Part shown: positions 42,231 through 50,414 of the stretch, one piece after another | Numbering within the stretch: the first letter of the stretch is position 1 | Layout of the letters: every line of letters starts with the position of its first letter | From: Vibrio hyugaensis | GTDB lineage: Bacteria > Pseudomonadota > Gammaproteobacteria > Enterobacterales > Vibrionaceae | Assembly (NCBI RefSeq): GCF_002906655.1 | Contig: NZ_CP025794.1 | Span: 3,038,001 to 3,102,000, forward strand | Direction of reading: 5' to 3' | Length of the DNA: 64,000 nucleotides | The notes under the pieces: model-generated | Database searches by the model: none | Told to the model about the DNA's origin: nothing | The model's input: the letters and a program-made list of their open reading frames with translations, nothing else | Made by a program: the position numbers and the translations under genes

Positions 42231-43481
42231 ATGTTGAGGGCTTTGTCAGTCGCTATTTTAGCGTTCTGGAGTTGTTTCGCGTTTTCTGCGAGCGAGTCCG
42301 CCATGTCTTTGTTAGATAACCGCTTTCGTGTCGATCCCACCATCGAACAGATTACTTTTTTGGTTTATCGTGAACAGAGCTCTCAGCCCGTCGTCCTTGT
42401 CCGCCCCGATGGTAAAAAATATTACGCTTGGGGCACCTACGACAACGTTCGTTGGTATCAAGAATCTTCCCTCGACATCATCTCGATAGATAAACCCATG
42501 CCGGGTCCGTGGCAGGCCGTCGGCAAAGTTACCCCGAAAAACAACATCCGTCTGATTTCGCACCTCAAGCTCAGCACCGATGTGTTTCCAAACCGCCTTT
42601 ACAATAGCGAAGCTCTAAAATTTACCGCACGTTTGACCTCAGACGATAAGCCACTTGCTCTGCGTGATTTTTTAGACCGCGTAAACCTGCGTGTGACTTT
42701 TGCTAAGTTTGTTGAGAACGAAGACGAACTGATCAAAGAAGCGCGCCCTGTACCAATGGTGATTGGCGAATTTGCCGATGATGGCCGAGACCTAGATGAA
42801 AAAGCAGGCGACGGTGTGTTTACCGTTCAACTGCCGATTGATGTCGAACCGGGTAAATACCGCGCGCGCATTACTTCTGGCAACGGCGTGTTCCTACGAG
42901 CACAAGAGCAAGTCGTACTGGTGTACCCATCGCCAATTACGCGCACCTTTATTCAAGCTCGTCATGCAGACCAACCTCATCAGCTGGTGGTCAGTGGTGA
43001 GCAAGGCATGATCACGCCAGGATCCATTGCAGTGAACGTTGAGCAAGAAGCACCAGACGGCTTTATCAGTTACAGCCAAGGTCAGGTGTCGGCTGATGGC
43101 TCTAAAACCACATTGAAGATGGATAACGATTCTGAACTTGGCAAATACTCATGGCACGGTGAAGTCTTTGCTACCGACCTATCTACCAAGCGCTCATTGG
43201 TGTTCCCAATTAAAGAGCAGACGTTCAGTGTGGTCGACGAAGTAGATCTAGAAGCCGCACGTCTTGCTAAAGAAGCAGAGCTTGCCGAGCAACGCCGCAT
43301 CGAAATGGAAAAGCGCATCATCGCCGAGCGCGAAGCCGAACGAAAGCGCAGCATGATCATCATTGCCATTGGCAACGTGATTGCTTTGATTCTGGTGATT
43401 CTATTCTGGATCATCTGGAGCAAGCTCAAGGCCAAACGTCAAGCCATGCCAGAGATGCAGTTGGAAGTGCCTAAGAAGTAG
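42231..43481 (+). CDS. TIGR03503-family membrane-anchored protein
   Basis: 416 residues. A signal peptide (RALSVAILAFWSCFAFSASE) is followed by a beta-rich extracytoplasmic region (about 30-330), including GEFADDGRDLDEKAGDGVFTVQLPIDVEPGKYRARI. Near the end comes a charged helix (LAKEAELAEQRRIEMEKRIIAEREAERKR, shown in pieces) and a C-terminal transmembrane segment (about 373-395). The layout matches TIGR03503, conserved in Vibrio and Shewanella near dnaQ. Function unknown. It starts 15 bases after dnaQ and is probably co-transcribed with it; a terminator follows. Confidence 0.82.
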   Translation: MLRALSVAILAFWSCFAFSASESAMSLLDNRFRVDPTIEQITFLVYREQSSQPVVLVRPDGKKYYAWGTYDNVRWYQESSLDIISIDKPMPGPWQAVGKVTPKNNIRLISHLKLSTDVFPNRLYNSEALKFTARLTSDDKPLALRDFLDRVNLRVTFAKFVENEDELIKEARPVPMVIGEFADDGRDLDEKAGDGVFTVQLPIDVEPGKYRARITSGNGVFLRAQEQVVLVYPSPITRTFIQARHADQPHQLVVSGEQGMITPGSIAVNVEQEAPDGFISYSQGQVSADGSKTTLKMDNDSELGKYSWHGEVFATDLSTKRSLVFPIKEQTFSVVDEVDLEAARLAKEAELAEQRRIEMEKRIIAEREAERKRSMIIIAIGNVIALILVILFWIIWSKLKAKRQAMPEMQLEVPKK

Positions 43482-43503
43482 GGCGCAAGAATTTAGATTA
43501 TAG

Positions 43504-43530
43504 AACGGAGCCGCTTGGCTCCGTTTTTTT
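43504..43530 (+). terminator. Terminator after the TIGR03503 gene (left boundary of accessory module)
   Basis: AACGGAGCC, loop GCTT, GGCTCCGTT, then five further T. Confidence 0.93.
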
Positions 43531-43615
43531 GATCTGTACGTTATAAAAATATGCAACTGGTTGTTTTTTGATATTTTTGACCATATTTATTATGTGGAAT
43601 AGGCTTGTAAATTAA

Positions 43616-43635
43616 AGTTCCCATTTGTGGAACTT
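43616..43635. promoter_or_regulatory. Operator 1 of the toxin-antitoxin operon
   Basis: AGTTCCCATTTGTGGAACTT: inverted arms AGTTCC and GGAACT. It matches operator 2 at 16 of 20 positions, and ends just before the -35. HigA-type antitoxins repress their own promoter through such palindromes. Confidence 0.8.
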
Positions 43636-43636
43636 T

Positions 43637-43665
43637 TTGTTGATGTTTTTTGTTTGTGGTATAGA
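43637..43665 (+). promoter_or_regulatory. Promoter of the higB-like / higA-ImmA / beta operon
   Basis: TTGTTG (43637-43642), 17-base spacer, TATAGA (43660-43665) with TGG just before it (extended -10). The predicted start falls inside operator 2, so both operators bracket the promoter. Confidence 0.7.
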
Positions 43666-43667
43666 AT

Positions 43668-43687
43668 AATTCCCAATTGGAGAACTT
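43668..43687. promoter_or_regulatory. Operator 2 of the toxin-antitoxin operon
   Basis: AATTCCCAATTGGAGAACTT, 16 of 20 identical to operator 1, with centres 52 bases apart (about five helical turns). It also includes the GGAG ribosome site of the toxin gene. Confidence 0.8.
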
Positions 43688-43689
43688 TG

Positions 43690-43953
43690 ATGCGTTTAAT
43701 TGGATTAGAACGACTGGGCGGAATTATAAGCGTCGACAGCGATACCAACATTTGGGTTTCTGCGTGGGTTGCAGAAGTAAGTAATGCCAATTGGAGAAGT
43801 GGTATTGAATTAGTTGACGCTTTTCCCAGGGTGAAGTGCCTAGATGAAACTTCTTATGAATTTCCGGTTTGCGGTAGTGACAATCTAAACATCAAAGTCA
43901 CTTTTTGCTTTAACAGAGGCATTGCTGTGATACGTGAAGTGATGAATAAATGA
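43690..43953 (+). CDS. HigB-like (RelE superfamily) type II toxin
   Basis: 87 residues beginning MRLIGLERLGGIISVDSDT. NANWRSGIELVDAFPRVK followed by VCGSDNLNIKVTFCFNRGIAVIREV matches the HigB pattern (a tryptophan and paired strands of a ribosome-dependent mRNA interferase). It is shorter than classic HigB at the C-terminus and lacks the THAEYD-like end, so activity is not certain. ATG 43690 has GGAG seven bases before; the longer reading frame to 43627 begins inside operator 1. The stop overlaps the next ATG (ATGA). Base composition and codon use are AT-richer than in flanking core genes. Confidence 0.75.
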   Translation: MRLIGLERLGGIISVDSDTNIWVSAWVAEVSNANWRSGIELVDAFPRVKCLDETSYEFPVCGSDNLNIKVTFCFNRGIAVIREVMNK

Positions 43954-45176
43954 GTAACCAACAACCTAGAGTTATTAGAACTCAAGAGCAATATCGCGAA
44001 TATCTACTTCAAGTCGAAGAATTGATTGTTCAGAAATTAGCTCCGGGTTCAGAAGAAGCTGAGCGTTTAGAGTTGCTAACAATTCTTATAGAGAATTACG
44101 AACGCTCTCACTATGTGATAGAGCCGATAGACCCTATAGAGGCTATTAAGTTTAGGATGGCTGAAAAGGGATTAAAGCAAGTTGATTTAGCTCCCTATTT
44201 TGGAACGAAAAGTCGAGTTTCTGAGGTGCTATCCGGGAAGCGTCCATTAACCGTTCCAATGATCAAAGCATTATCGGTTGGACTGGGTATTGCTCCCCAA
44301 ACTTTATTAGGACTTGAAAGTGAGTCTGACTATACGAGCACTTCAAACAAGCCAGAGGTCAACTGGTCGAAGTTCCCAATAAAGGAAATGCTTTCAAGAG
44401 GTTGGATTGAGAAGGTTAGCTCAAAGGCTAAGCAAACCGTTGAAGAGCAAGTTAAAGACTTTATTGGAAGTCTTGGAGGCACTACGGCATCAGCGTCTTT
44501 TAAAAGGACACTTTCAGGAGACGCTTATTCGCCACTAAGTCATTATAAACTCTATGCATGGGTAGCTCGTGTCATTCAAAAGGCTAGAAACAAAAAACTC
44601 GAGAATACTTTTGATGAGGGTGTGCTAGGCAAAGATTTTCTTAAGGATCTAGCTCAACTAAGTTGGTCTGAATATGGTCCTCTTTTAGCTGTCGAGTATT
44701 TAGAGAAACATGGTATTTGCGTTGTAATAGAGCCAGCCTTGAAAGGCACGTCTGTTGATGGCGCTGCTATGAAAGATATCGATGGTAAACCAATTATTGG
44801 CTTGTCTTTAAGGCAGGATCGCCTCGATAACTTCTGGTTTACCTTACTCCACGAGGTGGTTCATATCTGGAAGCATGCAGACTTAAACAAGACCTTTGTA
44901 GATGACATTGAAAATCACAGAGATAGCAAAGATAAGTTTGAAGCAGAGGCAAATCGGATCGCAAGAGATACTTTCATACCTCGAATGGTTTGGAAGCGTA
45001 GCGAAGCATATTTAAATCCCAGCCGGGATTCGATAGATAGTTTGTCCCGAGAGTTAAACATACATCCGGCTATCATTGCTGGAAGGTTAAGACGCGAATC
45101 GGGGAAATATAATCAGTATTCAGATTTGATTGGTCAAGGAGATGTCAGAAAGCACTTTCCTTGTAAGCATTGGTAA
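43950..45176 (+). CDS. HigA-type antitoxin fused to ImmA/IrrE metallopeptidase
   Basis: 408 residues. The N-terminal part (about 40-122) matches HigA-type antitoxins (COG5499): NYERSHYVIEPIDPIEAIKF, then LKQVDLAPYFGTKSRVSEVL and SGKRPLTVPMIKALSVGLGI, including a helix-turn-helix. A linker follows. The C-terminal ImmA/IrrE domain has HEVVH at residues 301-305 and FEAEANRIARD, whose glutamate (331 or 333) is the likely third zinc ligand. Such proteases cut HTH repressors in known phage and conjugative-element systems. Here repressor and protease are one chain, so derepression may be self-cleavage triggered by a signal. ATGA overlap with the toxin gene; 11 bases before the beta-type gene. Confidence 0.85.
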   Translation: MSNQQPRVIRTQEQYREYLLQVEELIVQKLAPGSEEAERLELLTILIENYERSHYVIEPIDPIEAIKFRMAEKGLKQVDLAPYFGTKSRVSEVLSGKRPLTVPMIKALSVGLGIAPQTLLGLESESDYTSTSNKPEVNWSKFPIKEMLSRGWIEKVSSKAKQTVEEQVKDFIGSLGGTTASASFKRTLSGDAYSPLSHYKLYAWVARVIQKARNKKLENTFDEGVLGKDFLKDLAQLSWSEYGPLLAVEYLEKHGICVVIEPALKGTSVDGAAMKDIDGKPIIGLSLRQDRLDNFWFTLLHEVVHIWKHADLNKTFVDDIENHRDSKDKFEAEANRIARDTFIPRMVWKRSEAYLNPSRDSIDSLSRELNIHPAIIAGRLRRESGKYNQYSDLIGQGDVRKHFPCKHW

Positions 45177-45187
45177 GTGAGGTAAGA

Positions 45188-46351
45188 ATGACCCCTAAGT
45201 ATGTACCTATTTTAAAGGCAAAAAAAGGCGAGTTTGAAGCGTATCAAAACTTGTCTAGAGCCGTTCAGCTTAACACTCTTCCTATTTTTGAGCTCCCACA
45301 ACTCACTAGTAAGATGTTGGAGAATAAAACTTATTCTGCTCTTGTAAGTCCATACGATTACTTTGTTGGAAAGTGCGCGAAAGAGCTTAGCTCATCTTTG
45401 GGGGTTCCTACATTGGGAGTAGACATACATGCTTGGGCTCCTAATTCGACCGTAGAATCAGGTGAACACGTACTTTCAAAGTATGTTAGTGCACTAACTG
45501 CATATGGTTGTGACGCGATTCCGGTAATTGGTTACGATCGGTGGGAAGACGAAGAGTACGCAACAGTACTAAAATTGCTTGCTCAGTCAAAAGACAGATT
45601 TATACTTCGATTAGATTCGTTTGCATTCGAAGATATGATCGAAGGAGATGTCTTTTTCGATACCCTAGAAGATATTGTGTCCTCAATGGACCTAGATACA
45701 AGTAAGTGTTCAGTTCTACTCGATTTTGGGGATGTGACTAAAACATCTATTGTTGAAATAGAGGAACAAGTTACGACTGCATTAGCATTGTTACGTGATT
45801 ATAAGTTTATGTTTACGTCTCTTGCGGGCTGTTCTGTCACGACTGATATAAATGGCATGGTTCCGAGCATCAATTCAACAGGCATAGTTGTCCGCAAAGA
45901 ATTTAAGGCTTGGAAGGCGGTCAAGACTTTTGCACCCAATACGAATTTTGTTTTTGGTGATTATGGTATTGCTAACCCAAATGTTGCAGATGGCATTGTT
46001 GCTCCCGATGCCAATGGAAAAATTAGATATACCATCGCAGACAGCTTTTTTGTAGTTCGTGGATATTCTCGAAGACAAGGGGAAAAAGGCGCACAAATGC
46101 ATGGCTTGTGTGAGACTTTGGTTAACTCTGGCTATTATCTTGGCCCTGAATTTAGCTGGGGAGACAGTATGATACATAAATGTTCTCAGCATGGAACTAT
46201 CGGAAAGAAAGTGTTTGTGGGAAGTACTACCAATTGGGTATCAATAGACACCACACATCATATGACTTTTGTAAACAGTGAGATTCTAGAGTTCGAGAGA
46301 AAGGCTGCTACAAAGAAAGCGTTCGATTTTGAAGTCGTTACACGACGTTAG
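45188..46351 (+). CDS. Beta-family protein (third gene of the TA-like operon)
   Basis: 387 residues. I recognise it as a member of the Beta-protein family (named for a phage T4 protein; function unknown). It starts KYVPILKAKKGEFEAYQNLS, has PIFELPQ, ILRLDSFAF and LLDFGDV strands suggesting a TIM-barrel-like fold, and ends with WVSIDTTHHMTFVN, a histidine-rich C-terminal motif of the family. The ATG at 45188 follows GAGG by five bases; a TTG at 45170 overlaps the previous gene. It is the last gene before a terminator. Its constant company with ImmA/IrrE proteins in my recollection suggests a shared defence role, which is inference. Confidence 0.75.
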   Translation: MTPKYVPILKAKKGEFEAYQNLSRAVQLNTLPIFELPQLTSKMLENKTYSALVSPYDYFVGKCAKELSSSLGVPTLGVDIHAWAPNSTVESGEHVLSKYVSALTAYGCDAIPVIGYDRWEDEEYATVLKLLAQSKDRFILRLDSFAFEDMIEGDVFFDTLEDIVSSMDLDTSKCSVLLDFGDVTKTSIVEIEEQVTTALALLRDYKFMFTSLAGCSVTTDINGMVPSINSTGIVVRKEFKAWKAVKTFAPNTNFVFGDYGIANPNVADGIVAPDANGKIRYTIADSFFVVRGYSRRQGEKGAQMHGLCETLVNSGYYLGPEFSWGDSMIHKCSQHGTIGKKVFVGSTTNWVSIDTTHHMTFVNSEILEFERKAATKKAFDFEVVTRR

Positions 46352-46374
46352 TGTTGTTCGACATCTGAGCTAAG

Positions 46375-46397
46375 AAAGGAGCAATCGCTCCTTTTTT
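46375..46397 (+). terminator. Terminator after the beta-family gene (right boundary of accessory module)
   Basis: AAAGGAGC, loop AATC, GCTCCTTT, then further T. Confidence 0.92.
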
Positions 46398-46454
46398 TAT
46401 TGCGATACCAAAAGTAACTCAACATCTCAAGTGAGGTGACTAGGAGGTCTCTGA

Positions 46455-46847
46455 ATGAAGTACAAAAAGCGTCAGGCATACAAATACAACCTTCATTCCG
46501 AAGAACAGATTGAAACCGGTATTACCCTCGCGCAGCCTTTCGATAGTCCGTTTCTGAGTCTATCTAAGCAAGGTTTGCTGACGATTAAGAAAGGTTACTC
46601 ATGGGATGGGGCGAGTGGCCCAGCGATTGATACCAAGAACATCCTCAAAGCGTCTTTGGTGCATGATGCGTTGTATCAGCTAATGAGGGAGGAAGTATTA
46701 CCGCAAAGCAGTCGAGAGCAAGCGGATAGGCTTCTACGTCAAATATGTCTCGAACACGGCATGTCGAACTTTAGGGCGACGTACATCTACTACGGAGTAA
46801 GAGTATTTGGCGGATGTTTTTCCAAACCGGATCTGTTATCTGCCTGA
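46455..46847 (+). CDS. DUF1353 family protein (phage-associated family)
   Basis: 130 residues. SKQGLLTIKKGYSWDGASGPAIDTKNILKASLVHDALYQLMRE, with the paired WDGAS and HDALY motifs, is DUF1353, a family common in phage genomes and as a solitary gene in Vibrio. Function unknown; some relatives neighbour lysis or tail genes. TAGGAGGT ahead of the ATG is a strong ribosome site. No other phage gene is near, so it is a fixed solitary gene or a remnant. Confidence 0.8.
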   Translation: MKYKKRQAYKYNLHSEEQIETGITLAQPFDSPFLSLSKQGLLTIKKGYSWDGASGPAIDTKNILKASLVHDALYQLMREEVLPQSSREQADRLLRQICLEHGMSNFRATYIYYGVRVFGGCFSKPDLLSA

Positions 46848-46928
46848 CGCGTATTTTTTATAAACTAACTGTTCATTTATACAGTGTTATTTTGTATGCT
46901 TCGAGTGTTTCAAAAGGAGTAATACATA

Positions 46929-47339
46929 ATGACAATAAGATATGAAGAACATCCCCCAAGCCCACAAGAGTACTGTGAGATGCGTGTAAAAGCAGGCTTA
47001 TCTCCAAAGTCTTTAAAAGCCGCAGAGATTGGCTTGCCGAACTCGCTTTATGGCGTATCCATCCGAGATGGTGAAGTGTTGATCGCAATGGGTCGAGTGG
47101 TTGGTGATGGCGCATGTAACTTTGAAATTGTGGATATCGCGGTCGATCCTAGCTATCAAGGAAAAGGCTTAGGAAGGAAAGTGATGGAATACATAGATGG
47201 CTACCTGTCGTCAGCAGCGCTAGAAGGCTCTTATGTTTCTATGATTGCGGATGAGCCAGTCTTCTATGAAAAACTTGGATACCGTTTAGTGGCACCAAAA
47301 AGTCAGGGGATGACAAAGAAGTTTAAACCACGCAAATAG
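46929..47339 (+). CDS. GNAT N-acetyltransferase
   Basis: 136 residues. NFEIVDIAVDPSYQGKGLGRKVMEYIDGYL is the complete GNAT acetyl-CoA signature (QGKGLG), followed by SYVSMIADEPVFYEKLGYRL. It resembles small GNAT enzymes of unknown substrate. AAAGGAG precedes the ATG by eleven bases. Single gene, reading the same way as its neighbours. Confidence 0.85.
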   Translation: MTIRYEEHPPSPQEYCEMRVKAGLSPKSLKAAEIGLPNSLYGVSIRDGEVLIAMGRVVGDGACNFEIVDIAVDPSYQGKGLGRKVMEYIDGYLSSAALEGSYVSMIADEPVFYEKLGYRLVAPKSQGMTKKFKPRK

Positions 47340-47600
47340 AAGCCGCGCGATACCTAAGAGTAAACCGTCATTCTAGCGAGCTCCAGCGAGACTAAGAATC
47401 TATTATCAGCGCGCTGGGGTGTTTGTTTCTTCATCCTCTACAGAGTGCTTGGCAAGCAGGCTCTAGCGCGTGCATTCAATCACCTCGCTGTTCCTTTCCG
47501 TATCTATGCTAAACTCACGCCATCAGCTATATGAATGACTTCTCATTTGTTTACCTGAGGGCAGCAATCGGGCTGCCATAATCTTATTAAAGGCATAAAA

Positions 47601-47864
47601 ATGAGCAAATTAAGTTCAGCTGAACGTAAAGCACGTGACAACGAACGTTTCTCCCAACGCGTGAGTGAGCGTCGTGAAAAAGGTGAAGATGTCGTTGCGT
47701 ACGCATTGGCGAACAAAAAGGCTGTGAAGTTCCTGACTAAGTCAGAGAAGAAAGCTTTGAACGAACGCAAAGCGACGCTTCAAGAAGAACTTAAGCTGAA
47801 AGAGCAGGAAGAACTGCGCAGAATTGAACAGTCGTTTATTGTTGAAGAAGATAGCGAACAATAA
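47601..47864 (+). CDS. Small charged hypothetical protein
   Basis: 87 residues, about half of them charged. MSKLSSAERKARDNERFSQRVSERREKGEDVVAYALANKKAVKF (in part) is followed by a Lys/Glu-rich helix (KSEKKALNERKATLQEELKL) and an acidic end (VEEDSEQ). I do not recognise the family. AAAGGC precedes the ATG, and a strong terminator follows, supporting a real gene. A small hairpin (GGCAGC and GCTGCC, 47560-47577) lies in its leader. It could be a nucleic acid-binding or chaperone-like helical protein. Confidence 0.6.
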   Translation: MSKLSSAERKARDNERFSQRVSERREKGEDVVAYALANKKAVKFLTKSEKKALNERKATLQEELKLKEQEELRRIEQSFIVEEDSEQ

Positions 47865-47910
47865 ACGCTTCTTTGCTAACGCCGTGTTGTGCGTAGCAGA
47901 GATTCAATAA

Positions 47911-47936
47911 AAAACGGGAGCCTCGGCTCCCGTTTT
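47911..47936. terminator. Bidirectional terminator before fadE
   Basis: AAAACGGGAGCC, loop TC, GGCTCCCGTTTT; T runs on both strands serve both convergent genes. Confidence 0.93.
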
Positions 47937-47969
47937 GCTTTCTTATTTATCGTTTAAGCCATCATTCGC

Positions 47970-50414
47970 TTAAGCGACGTTTTCCATCTGAGGGTAAAGC
48001 GGCTTTGCGGCCAATAGCTCTGGCTCAAAATCGTCTACGTTGATGGTGTCTAGGCGATGCTGTTCCGCTTCTCTTAGCAGATCTGCTTCTTCCTGAGTGA
48101 TTACGCCTTGTTCTAGACCTTCTTGAGCAATCATATCCAAACGCATGAATGGACGGCGTTTGCCTTGCGCTTTACATATTTTGTCGAACACAGGCTCAGC
48201 TTGAAGGATCACAGACAGTGCCAACTCAATTTTACCTGCAGCGTTGTGTTCTGTTGGTTCTAGGTACTGACCACGACCAATACGTGAACGTGTTGCACTT
48301 GGCGTTTGTAGAATACGCGCCACTTTACTGTCTAGCTTATCGCTTGGTGCTTTGCGCACTCGGCCAAATGGCATGATCAATACACGCAGTGCACGACCAA
48401 TCGCTTTGTTCGGGAAGTTTGCTAGGAACTCATCAATGGCAGCTTCGCTTTGTTTTAAGCTGTCTTGCAAGCCCCAATGTACCAATGGCAAATCTTCAAC
48501 AGGGCGGCCATCCTGCTCGAAGCGTTTCAATGTTGCAGAGCTCAAGTATAGCTGACTTAAAATGTCACCAAGACGCGCAGACAGACGCTCTTTACGCTTC
48601 AACGAACCACCTAGTACTGCCATCGAGATATCCGATAGCAGAGCAAGGTTTGCGCTGTAACGGTTCAATTGTTGGTAGTAACGCTTGGTTGCGTCTTTGG
48701 TTGGTGACGTTGAGCCTAGACCATCACTTAGACCAAACCAGATGCTGCGAACTAGGTTACTCATGGTGAAGCTCACGTGACCCGCTAGTGCTTTGTCGAA
48801 CTTCTCAACCGCATCGCCAGCGTCAGAGTAAGCGGCATTCATCTCTTCAAGAACGTAAGGGTGACAACGAATTGCGCCTTGACCGAAGATGATCATTGAA
48901 CGAGTTAGGATGTTGGCACCTTCTACCGTTACCGCGATTGGTGCACCTTGGTAACCACGTGCTAGGAAGTTAGAAGGACCCATACAGATGCCTTTACCAC
49001 CTACGATATCCATCGCGTCGATGATGCTTTGTTGGCCACGATGCGTACAGTGGTACTTCACGATAGCCGAGATAACAGAAGGTTTTTCACCTAGGTCGAT
49101 ACCTGCCACGGTTAGGTTGCTTGCTGCATCCATCACGTAGGCATTACCACCTAGACGAGCTAATGGTTCTTCTACGCCTTCCATGTGACCGATAGGTTGT
49201 TTGAACTGACGACGAATGCGTGAGTAAGCGCCTGTTGCCATCGCAGCGGTTTTGATGCCGCCCGTTGAGTTAGAAGGTAGCGTGATACCACGACCGACTG
49301 ATAGACACTCAACCAGCATACGCCAGCCTTGACCAGCCATTTTCTCGCCACCGATGATGAAGTCCATTGGTACAAACACATCTTTTGCGCGAGTCGGACC
49401 ATTTTGGAATGGTACGTTAAGTGGGAAATGACGGTTACCAATCTCAACACCTTTAAGGTTTGTTGGGATTAGGGCACAAGTGATACCAAGATCTTCTTGA
49501 TCGCCAAGCAGACCTTCAGGGTCACGCAGTTTAAAGGCTAGGCCAAGTACCGTCGCGACAGGTGCCAGTGTGATGTAACGTTTATTCCAAGTTAGGCGCA
49601 TGCCTAAGACTTCTTCGCCTTCCCATTCACCTTTACATACCACACCGAAATCTGGAATAGAGCCAGCATCGGAACCTGCTTCTGGGCTAGTCAGTGCAAA
49701 ACATGGGATCTCTTTACCTTCAGCCAAGCGAGGTAAGTAATGATTTTTCTGCTCTTCTGTACCGTAGTGCTGCAGGAGTTCACCAGGACCTAATGAGTTC
49801 GGTACGCCAACGGTAGAAGACAGCACGCCAGAAACGCCAGTCAGTTTTTGCAGTACCAAAGATTGCGCGTATGCAGAGAATTCCAGACCACCGTATTTCT
49901 TTTTGATGATCATGGCGAAGAACTTGTTGTCTTTCAGGTATTGCCATACTTCTGGTGGCAAATCTGCAAGCTCGTGAGTGACTTGGTAGTCGTTCACCAT
50001 GGCACACACTTCGTTAACTGGGCCATCTAGGAATGCACGCTCTTCTTTGCTCAGCTTAGGCGCTTTGATTGCGTGAAGCTTTTCCCATTCAGGTTTGCCT
50101 TTGAATAGCTCCGCTTCCCACCAGACCGTACCAGCGTCCAATGCTTCTTTCTCGGTCTGAGACATAGCAGGTAGGACTTTCTTAAACATCACGAGCGCTT
50201 TGCGACTGATCAGTGATTGGCGAATGCCCGACACGGCGAATACCGCAACGGCAAGTACATAAAGTGCCCAGCCAATAACACCAACTGAGCCTGCGATCGT
50301 CAGTGCTAGCATGGCAGCAGTTAGCAGACTGACGGATTTCACGAGAGACATTCTGTGGTAGAGCGTTATGCCTAACACAACTGTCATCGCTACGATTGAG
50401 AGCAAGATGTCCAT
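47970..50414 (-). CDS. fadE: Acyl-CoA dehydrogenase FadE
   Basis: 814 residues, the long FadE form with N-terminal membrane-associated helices ([19 protein letters not shown]) and C-terminal extra domain. [35 protein letters not shown] and [16 protein letters not shown] [19 protein letters not shown] are acyl-CoA dehydrogenase signatures. It catalyses the first step of beta-oxidation at the inner membrane. A FadR-like operator lies 51 bases before the start. gmhA and yafJ diverge upstream, as in E. coli. Confidence 0.96.

Follow-up and report, generated by a model that had tools for sequence, protein, structure and literature searches.

A PD-λ-2-type operon of Vibrio hyugaensis: a HigB-like protein without the HigB residues and a possible relation to other Beta-containing loci

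Identification of the operon

A stretch of 64,000 nucleotides (nt) from Vibrio hyugaensis (contig NZ_CP025794.1, positions 3,038,001 to 3,102,000), referred to as the window, contains an operon of three genes on the forward strand. Gene A (43690-43953), which starts with ATG after GGAG, encodes a HigB-like protein of 87 amino acids; gene B (43950-45176) encodes a fusion of helix-turn-helix (HTH) and ImmA domains of 408 amino acids; and gene C (45188-46351) encodes a Beta family protein of 387 amino acids. An ATGA overlap joins A and B, and 11 bases separate B from C. A first-pass annotation had described a self-contained HigB-like/HigA-ImmA/Beta operon with exactly this packing, and the gene calls, Pfam, and PADLOC agree with the description. 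The operon is also AT-richer than its neighbors, as had been stated, with a G+C content in 1-kb windows of 0.40-0.41 versus 0.43-0.50 on either side. The two flanking terminators are recognizable as terminator-like stem-loops on the forward strand: that of the upstream gene (43502-43527) was found in the terminator scan, and the downstream one (46375-46398), followed by a T run, was read directly from the letters and is not in the list of the scan.

The three genes match the PADLOC models PD-Lambda-2_A (7.2e-28), PD-Lambda-2_B (1.6e-180), and PD-Lambda-2_C (1.4e-154), respectively, and the operon is almost certainly a PD-λ-2 anti-phage system. The first-pass annotation, which knew of no characterized system with this exact composition, had proposed an undescribed module and a comparison with PADLOC. 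This comparison leads to a described system, an outcome that the first-pass annotation had itself listed as refuting its proposal. Because PD-λ-2 has the same composition in print (PMC9519451), an undescribed system is excluded.

According to Vassallo et al. (2022; PMC9519451), PD-λ-2 of Escherichia coli was found through selection for phage defense and consists of a HigB-like protein, a HigA-like domain with a peptidase, and a relative of the P4 antitoxin. In that system, B alone was toxic and was rescued by A, C was dispensable for neutralization and required for defense against λvir, and the defense was abortive (PMC9519451). The components, their order, and the domain composition are all the same in the window operon, and its identities with two E. 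coli copies are 37/47% for A, 61/70% for B, and 41/55% for C. The surroundings differ: the window operon occupies a Vibrio chromosomal site, whereas the copy of E. coli C is in a recombinase/integrase setting. In Vibrio europaeus, PD-λ-2 is annotated at an insertion spot (PMC12824646). One partner in RosmerTA (RmrTA) is likewise an antitoxin that has an ImmA domain and often also an HTH (2023; PMC10440598). However, the matches of RmrA (PADLOC) to B are weak (2.8e-6), PD-Lambda-2_B fits B far better (1.6e-180), and the window has a Beta gene.

The first protein: a HigB fold without HigB residues

The Pfam HigB_toxin model (PF09907) matches A at 4.2e-5 with 24.2 bits, under its 27-bit cutoff. 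With an E value of 8.3e-4, the profile built from 62 A proteins aligns to residues 1-87 of the 104 of E. coli HigB (5ifg_A), and A thus ends before the HigB C-terminal tail. In HigB/RelE toxins, an Arg (in GNxxR) and a His and a Tyr (in THxxY) are catalytic. In the alignment, these residues are present in 15 of 15 canonical HigBs versus none of the 62 PD-λ-2-type A proteins, and A was rejected as an ordinary HigB toxin on this basis. The canonical HigBs were taken from genomes of the same order, with three of 18 matches dropped (a contig-end fragment, the window itself, and one PD-λ-2-type A), and the alignment of A was made without P0123, which has a longer N terminus. The ratio of nonsynonymous to synonymous substitution rates (dN/dS) of A is 0.156 against each of two relatives, indicating purifying selection, and the gene is therefore not decaying. 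The synonymous distances of B and C were saturated against the window.

The retention of the Arg, His, and Tyr was surveyed in 65 loci (the best 30 of 34 and the best 30 of 40 B-profile matches, giving 59 distinct loci, and 6 more). A plasmid locus was left out of the analysis. The three residues are kept in 31 of 32 HigBs adjoining a short HigA, the exception having an internal deletion, in 13 of 16 adjoining a HigA-ImmA without Beta, and in one of six adjoining a HigA-ImmA with Beta. The nonkeepers in the last group are the window and four contigs judged by their lengths to be already in the set of 57 loci described below. No HigB was found in 11 of the 65 loci, some of which are at contig ends. 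Compared with the HigBA type II toxin–antitoxin (TA) systems, the operon is alike in having a HigB-like A and a B whose first ~120 residues are HigA-like, but A lacks the conserved HigB residues, B carries a peptidase, and Beta is added.

The second and third proteins

Pfam detects HTH_3 and Peptidase_M78 in B, and the B profile matches HigA (5ifg_B) with an E value of 1.5e-8 over positions 7-117. The HEVVH motif lies at residues 301-305, where the first-pass annotation had placed it. Its H301, E302, and H305 are invariant in the 45 aligned B proteins, and HExxH with a downstream acidic ExEA[ND] is found in 54 of 54 B relatives; the metal motif of B is intact. In a tree of B with 49 rows, the PD-λ-2 type (27 loci and the window) forms one clade with 99/99 support (28 rows). 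Three degenerate two-gene cases require three separate changes on this tree, the deep order of which is unsure because of long branches.

The Pfam model Beta_protein (PF14350) matches C at 1.4e-66. The structure model of Beta is a predicted (βα)8 TIM barrel with a predicted local distance difference test score (pLDDT) of 94.9. Asp79 and Asp258 (window numbering) are present in 49 of 49 Beta proteins from several contexts and His358 in 48, and Beta is thus predicted to be a TIM barrel with a conserved acidic/His site. A sequence search of the PDB with Beta gave nothing convincing (best E value, 0.46), and a Foldseek search found no telling relative.

Co-inheritance and distribution

A Beta alignment was used to scan genome contigs, and 57 loci were obtained. 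In 54 of them, A-like and B-like genes lie just upstream of Beta on the same strand in the order A-B-C, and the other three (L058, L060, and L061) hold partial Beta genes only, L058 being at a contig end. The neighborhood analysis suggested by the first-pass annotation thus bears out the co-inheritance of the three genes, and because the scan relied on patterns derived from Betas of the PD-λ-2 type, the 54 of 57 speaks of the tightness of PD-λ-2 and not of Beta in general. Among 5426 complete E. coli genomes, the B-C DNA has a match in seven at the sensitivity of the search, and in three of these the match covers 80% or more of the query; both loci that were opened hold all three genes. E. coli strain C, a laboratory strain, carries a natural PD-λ-2 copy (L223:3582-7793). 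A SIR2-family gene adjoins it, and genes for a recombinase and an integrase are close by. In the genome of the window, Beta is single-copy; its closest relative, 98% identical, is named from Vibrio campbellii. A protein-word search with A yielded nine proteins, including that of the window.

Paired putative operators

Two near-palindromes lie upstream of A. The far putative operator, TTCCCATTTGTGGAA (43618-43632), has three mismatches to TTCCCAAATTGGGAA/TTCCCAATTTGGGAA and is 72 nt before the A start; the first base given for the operon in the first-pass annotation (43616) is at this site and not at a gene start. The near one, TTCCCAATTGGAGAA (43670-43684), has two mismatches, is 20 nt before the A start, and overlaps the likely ribosome-binding site of A. 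The two operators that had been proposed are borne out by a direct repeat of 30 nt, with copies at 43607 and 43659 (73% identical), by the near-palindromes, and by the conservation of the pair in the PD-λ-2 family. Paired sites near TTCCCAAATTGGGAA precede A with at most three mismatches each in 52 of 55 loci, the window included, and with at most four in 54. In 2750 shuffles, a pair occurred in 0.0% at either limit, a figure that does not amount to an independent test because the motif was picked after inspection of the same loci. An earlier operator scan by pair score was less clear than the motif test, with 32 of 55 loci above all 20 shuffles. The pair is absent from all 16 related loci that are not of the PD-λ-2 type, namely L123 and 15 two-gene loci; eight of the 16 have a single site with at most three mismatches.

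A promoter-like sequence, TTGATG-16-TAGAAT (43640-43667, forward strand, 9/12 match), lies between the operators, and it is this position that points to it. The single promoter of the first-pass annotation accordingly has a candidate, but the evidence for it is weak, as such sites are no commoner than chance in 43400-46500 (four found versus 6.3 expected from shuffles). We infer that B, or A with B, may repress its own operon at the paired putative operators, because B has an HTH and HigBA provides the precedent.

The chromosomal site

On its upstream side, the operon is flanked by a gene at 42231-43481. Downstream, after a DUF1353 gene, a GNAT gene, and one small unassigned gene, comes a gene at 47970-50414, which we take by recognition to be fadE-like. 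The DUF1353 and GNAT genes (46455-47336) directly follow the operon. G043, which lacks the operon, has a GNAT gene of 78% identity in the corresponding position. A probe for the flank gave matches in 23 of 61 genomes, and the sites of five congeners (L090-L094) were inspected by eye. They contain a SulP-like transporter, GGDEF-like proteins, a transporter and its partner, small paired genes, or GNAT alone. The site therefore varies, since these congeners carry other genes in the 43482-47970 interval. PADLOC applied to eight proteins of L090-L094 gave only Cas10 matches to a GGDEF-like protein (1.1e-6), which we read as a shared cyclase-type domain. A defense hotspot in congeners is not supported by these five sites and eight proteins. 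The closest genome (G030) has a contig break at the site. In G038, a large protein with two similar small genes beside it occupies the site; its motif suggests a PAAR-type secreted protein.

Neighborhoods of Beta outside PD-λ-2

PF14350 searches of two overlapping sets of 398 and 369 genomes gave 22 Beta genes or pieces in 18 genomes, all of which were classified. Six are of the PD-λ-2 type, including two pieces in G888, possibly the halves of a single gene that has been interrupted. A single locus of genome G520 (L179:3769-6940) holds an intact HigB, a HigA-ImmA, Beta, and a convergent sce7726 (cII-like) gene. Two loci (L181:3895-7309 and L182:1045-4409) have DUF6932, HTH-ImmA, and Beta, with a convergent sce7726-type gene; the first gene of L181 matches the PADLOC model PDC-M63A at 6.7e-9. 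One locus (L183:2439-5618) consists of GNAT, an ImmA without a recognized HTH, Beta, and a convergent sce7726, and another (L180:3402-7032) of a DUF4917 gene (PADLOC PDC-S21), HTH-ImmA, and Beta, with no sce7726 match. Six Betas follow a small protein that is membrane-type by hydropathy only and a short ImmA. Hydrophobic membrane-type segments are seen in the small proteins in the slot before ImmA-Beta in L210, L211, L213, L214, and L216, and also in P4 gop, just before beta. L219:4099-8194 has tandem ImmA-Beta pairs behind one membrane-type protein, the second pair providing one more of the 22.

An ImmA gene is directly upstream of Beta in 17 of the 22 cases. The seven short ImmAs are all over the Pfam M78 cutoff (53 to 102 bits versus 22), and the ImmA of G872, at 21 bits, is just under it and matches PD-Lambda-2_B at 4.3e-46. 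In 12 of the 22, Beta ends against a convergent gene of the sce7726 type; none of the 12 is of the PD-λ-2 type. These calls were made with a profile of four of the 12 and P4 cII, and NCBIfam confirms the three that were submitted. Neither the window nor the flanks retrieved for the 57 related loci (0/57) contain an sce7726 match. P4 cII is itself annotated as an sce7726 family member, and the PADLOC "cll" model matches genes of G520, G830, and G872. A tree was built from the window Beta, 18 further Betas, and those of 30 of the 57 loci; in it, the PD-λ-2 Betas form one clade with 100/100 support (31 rows). The G520 Beta adjoins this clade with modest support (85/88), and the P4 Beta is placed among the Betas behind a membrane-type protein and a short ImmA.

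The Gop-β-cII system of satellite P4 (Rousset et al., 2022; PMC9122126) shares Beta with the operon (PF14350, 4.3e-56 in P4). On the P4 side, a small gop directly precedes beta with no ImmA between them and cII, of the sce7726 family, is convergent, whereas a HigB-like and a HigA-ImmA gene are present in the window, where sce7726 gives no match. It is possible, if somewhat short of an even chance, that PD-λ-2 and Gop-β-cII both belong, as separate branches, to a single modular family, with a core of ImmA and a TIM-barrel Beta, often a convergent sce7726, and an exchangeable first gene (a Gop-like small membrane protein, HigB, DUF6932, GNAT, or DUF4917). PD-λ-2 would then have arisen when HigB/HigA-ImmA joined Beta, HigB having afterward changed from toxin to inhibitor by active-site loss and sce7726 having been lost. 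The G520 locus resembles an intermediate that has survived, and it may connect PD-λ-2 with Gop-β-cII. Against a modular family are the four Betas for which no ImmA was recognized, several very long branches, and the small numbers. In the literature searched, which left most subscription papers and all preprints outside, no description of an ImmA-Beta-sce7726 family or of the loss of HigB residues was found.

Proposed mechanism

Here, we propose a mechanism in which B is both repressor and toxic effector, A is a dead HigB that restrains it, and C responds to infection; we consider it somewhat more probable than the alternatives taken together. At rest, A, with its HigB fold and lost nuclease site, would bind the HigA-like half of B and keep B harmless, and A and B would jointly repress the promoter at the paired operators. 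On infection, C, by means of the acidic/His pocket of its TIM barrel, would detect or relay the event and free or activate B. The ImmA-type peptidase of B would then damage a cell target, and the infected cell would stop, so that the phage is not spread. The absence of the HigB residues from A agrees with the published toxicity of B and its neutralization by A (PMC9519451). We infer the remaining roles, namely repression by B, C as the sensor, and the peptidase as the killing activity.

Several observations weigh against this mechanism. Between L007 and L008, the two relatives against which A of the window was compared, dN/dS is 0.63 for A, at a synonymous distance of only 0.15, versus 0.03 for B and 0.05 for C, and A thus evolves faster than B and C. 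L115, L157, and L158, which are two-gene loci without Beta, also lack the HigB residues, and the loss is therefore not tied to Beta; conversely, the G520 locus (L123/L179) combines Beta with an intact HigB. These comparisons suggest repeated loss of the residues beside HigA-ImmA, together with one loss at the base of PD-λ-2 or earlier. The toxicity of B in E. coli came on overexpression and need not stem from the peptidase. Finally, membrane-type, DUF6932, GNAT, or DUF4917 proteins in the first slot suit an effector rather than an inhibitor. Both pictures of the first slot are kept, and the direct experiment in print is preferred (PMC9519451).

Alternatively, Beta may be an enzyme that acts on the phage or the cell, its barrel being activated by infection, with B as a repressor and peptidase switch and A only tuning B. 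The near-invariance of Asp79, Asp258, and His358 across contexts, the TIM-barrel fold, common to many enzymes, and the requirement of C for defense (PMC9519451) argue for such an enzyme, but no near structural relative names a reaction, and we regard this alternative as rather unlikely. Less probable still is the canonical higBA with a peptidase added, which is what the first-pass annotation had in mind: HigA would be removed by the peptidase or upon infection, and a freed HigB would cut mRNA on ribosomes. In its favor, A is a homolog of E. coli HigB, the N-terminal part of B is a homolog of HigA, and the Beta-less two-gene relatives keep the HigB residues in 13 of 16 cases; however, the Arg, His, and Tyr are missing in 62 of 62 A proteins, the A profile stops before the HigB C-terminal tail, and in E. 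coli it was B that was toxic and A that rescued (PMC9519451). Release of an active HigB toxin is hence doubtful, and of the overall interpretation first offered, the co-inherited defense-type operon stands and the undescribed composition does not. A selfish addiction module with an incidental effect on phage is very improbable: the TA-like parts and the mobile surroundings in E. coli C, with recombinase and integrase genes near, would suit it, but the E. coli homolog came from a phage-defense selection, and its third gene is needed for defense and not for neutralization (PMC9519451).

Implications

The window operon itself is a Vibrio copy of a known system and is ordinary as a discovery. What is added here to the literature consulted is the loss of the HigB residues in A, the paired putative operators, the predicted fold of Beta, and the link through Beta neighborhoods to another phage-defense system. 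PD-λ-2 presents an unexpected inversion of the toxin and antitoxin roles (PMC9519451), for which the loss of the HigB residues would be a simple and testable explanation. Moreover, Beta recurs with different candidate effectors, and its role may therefore be approachable by comparison.

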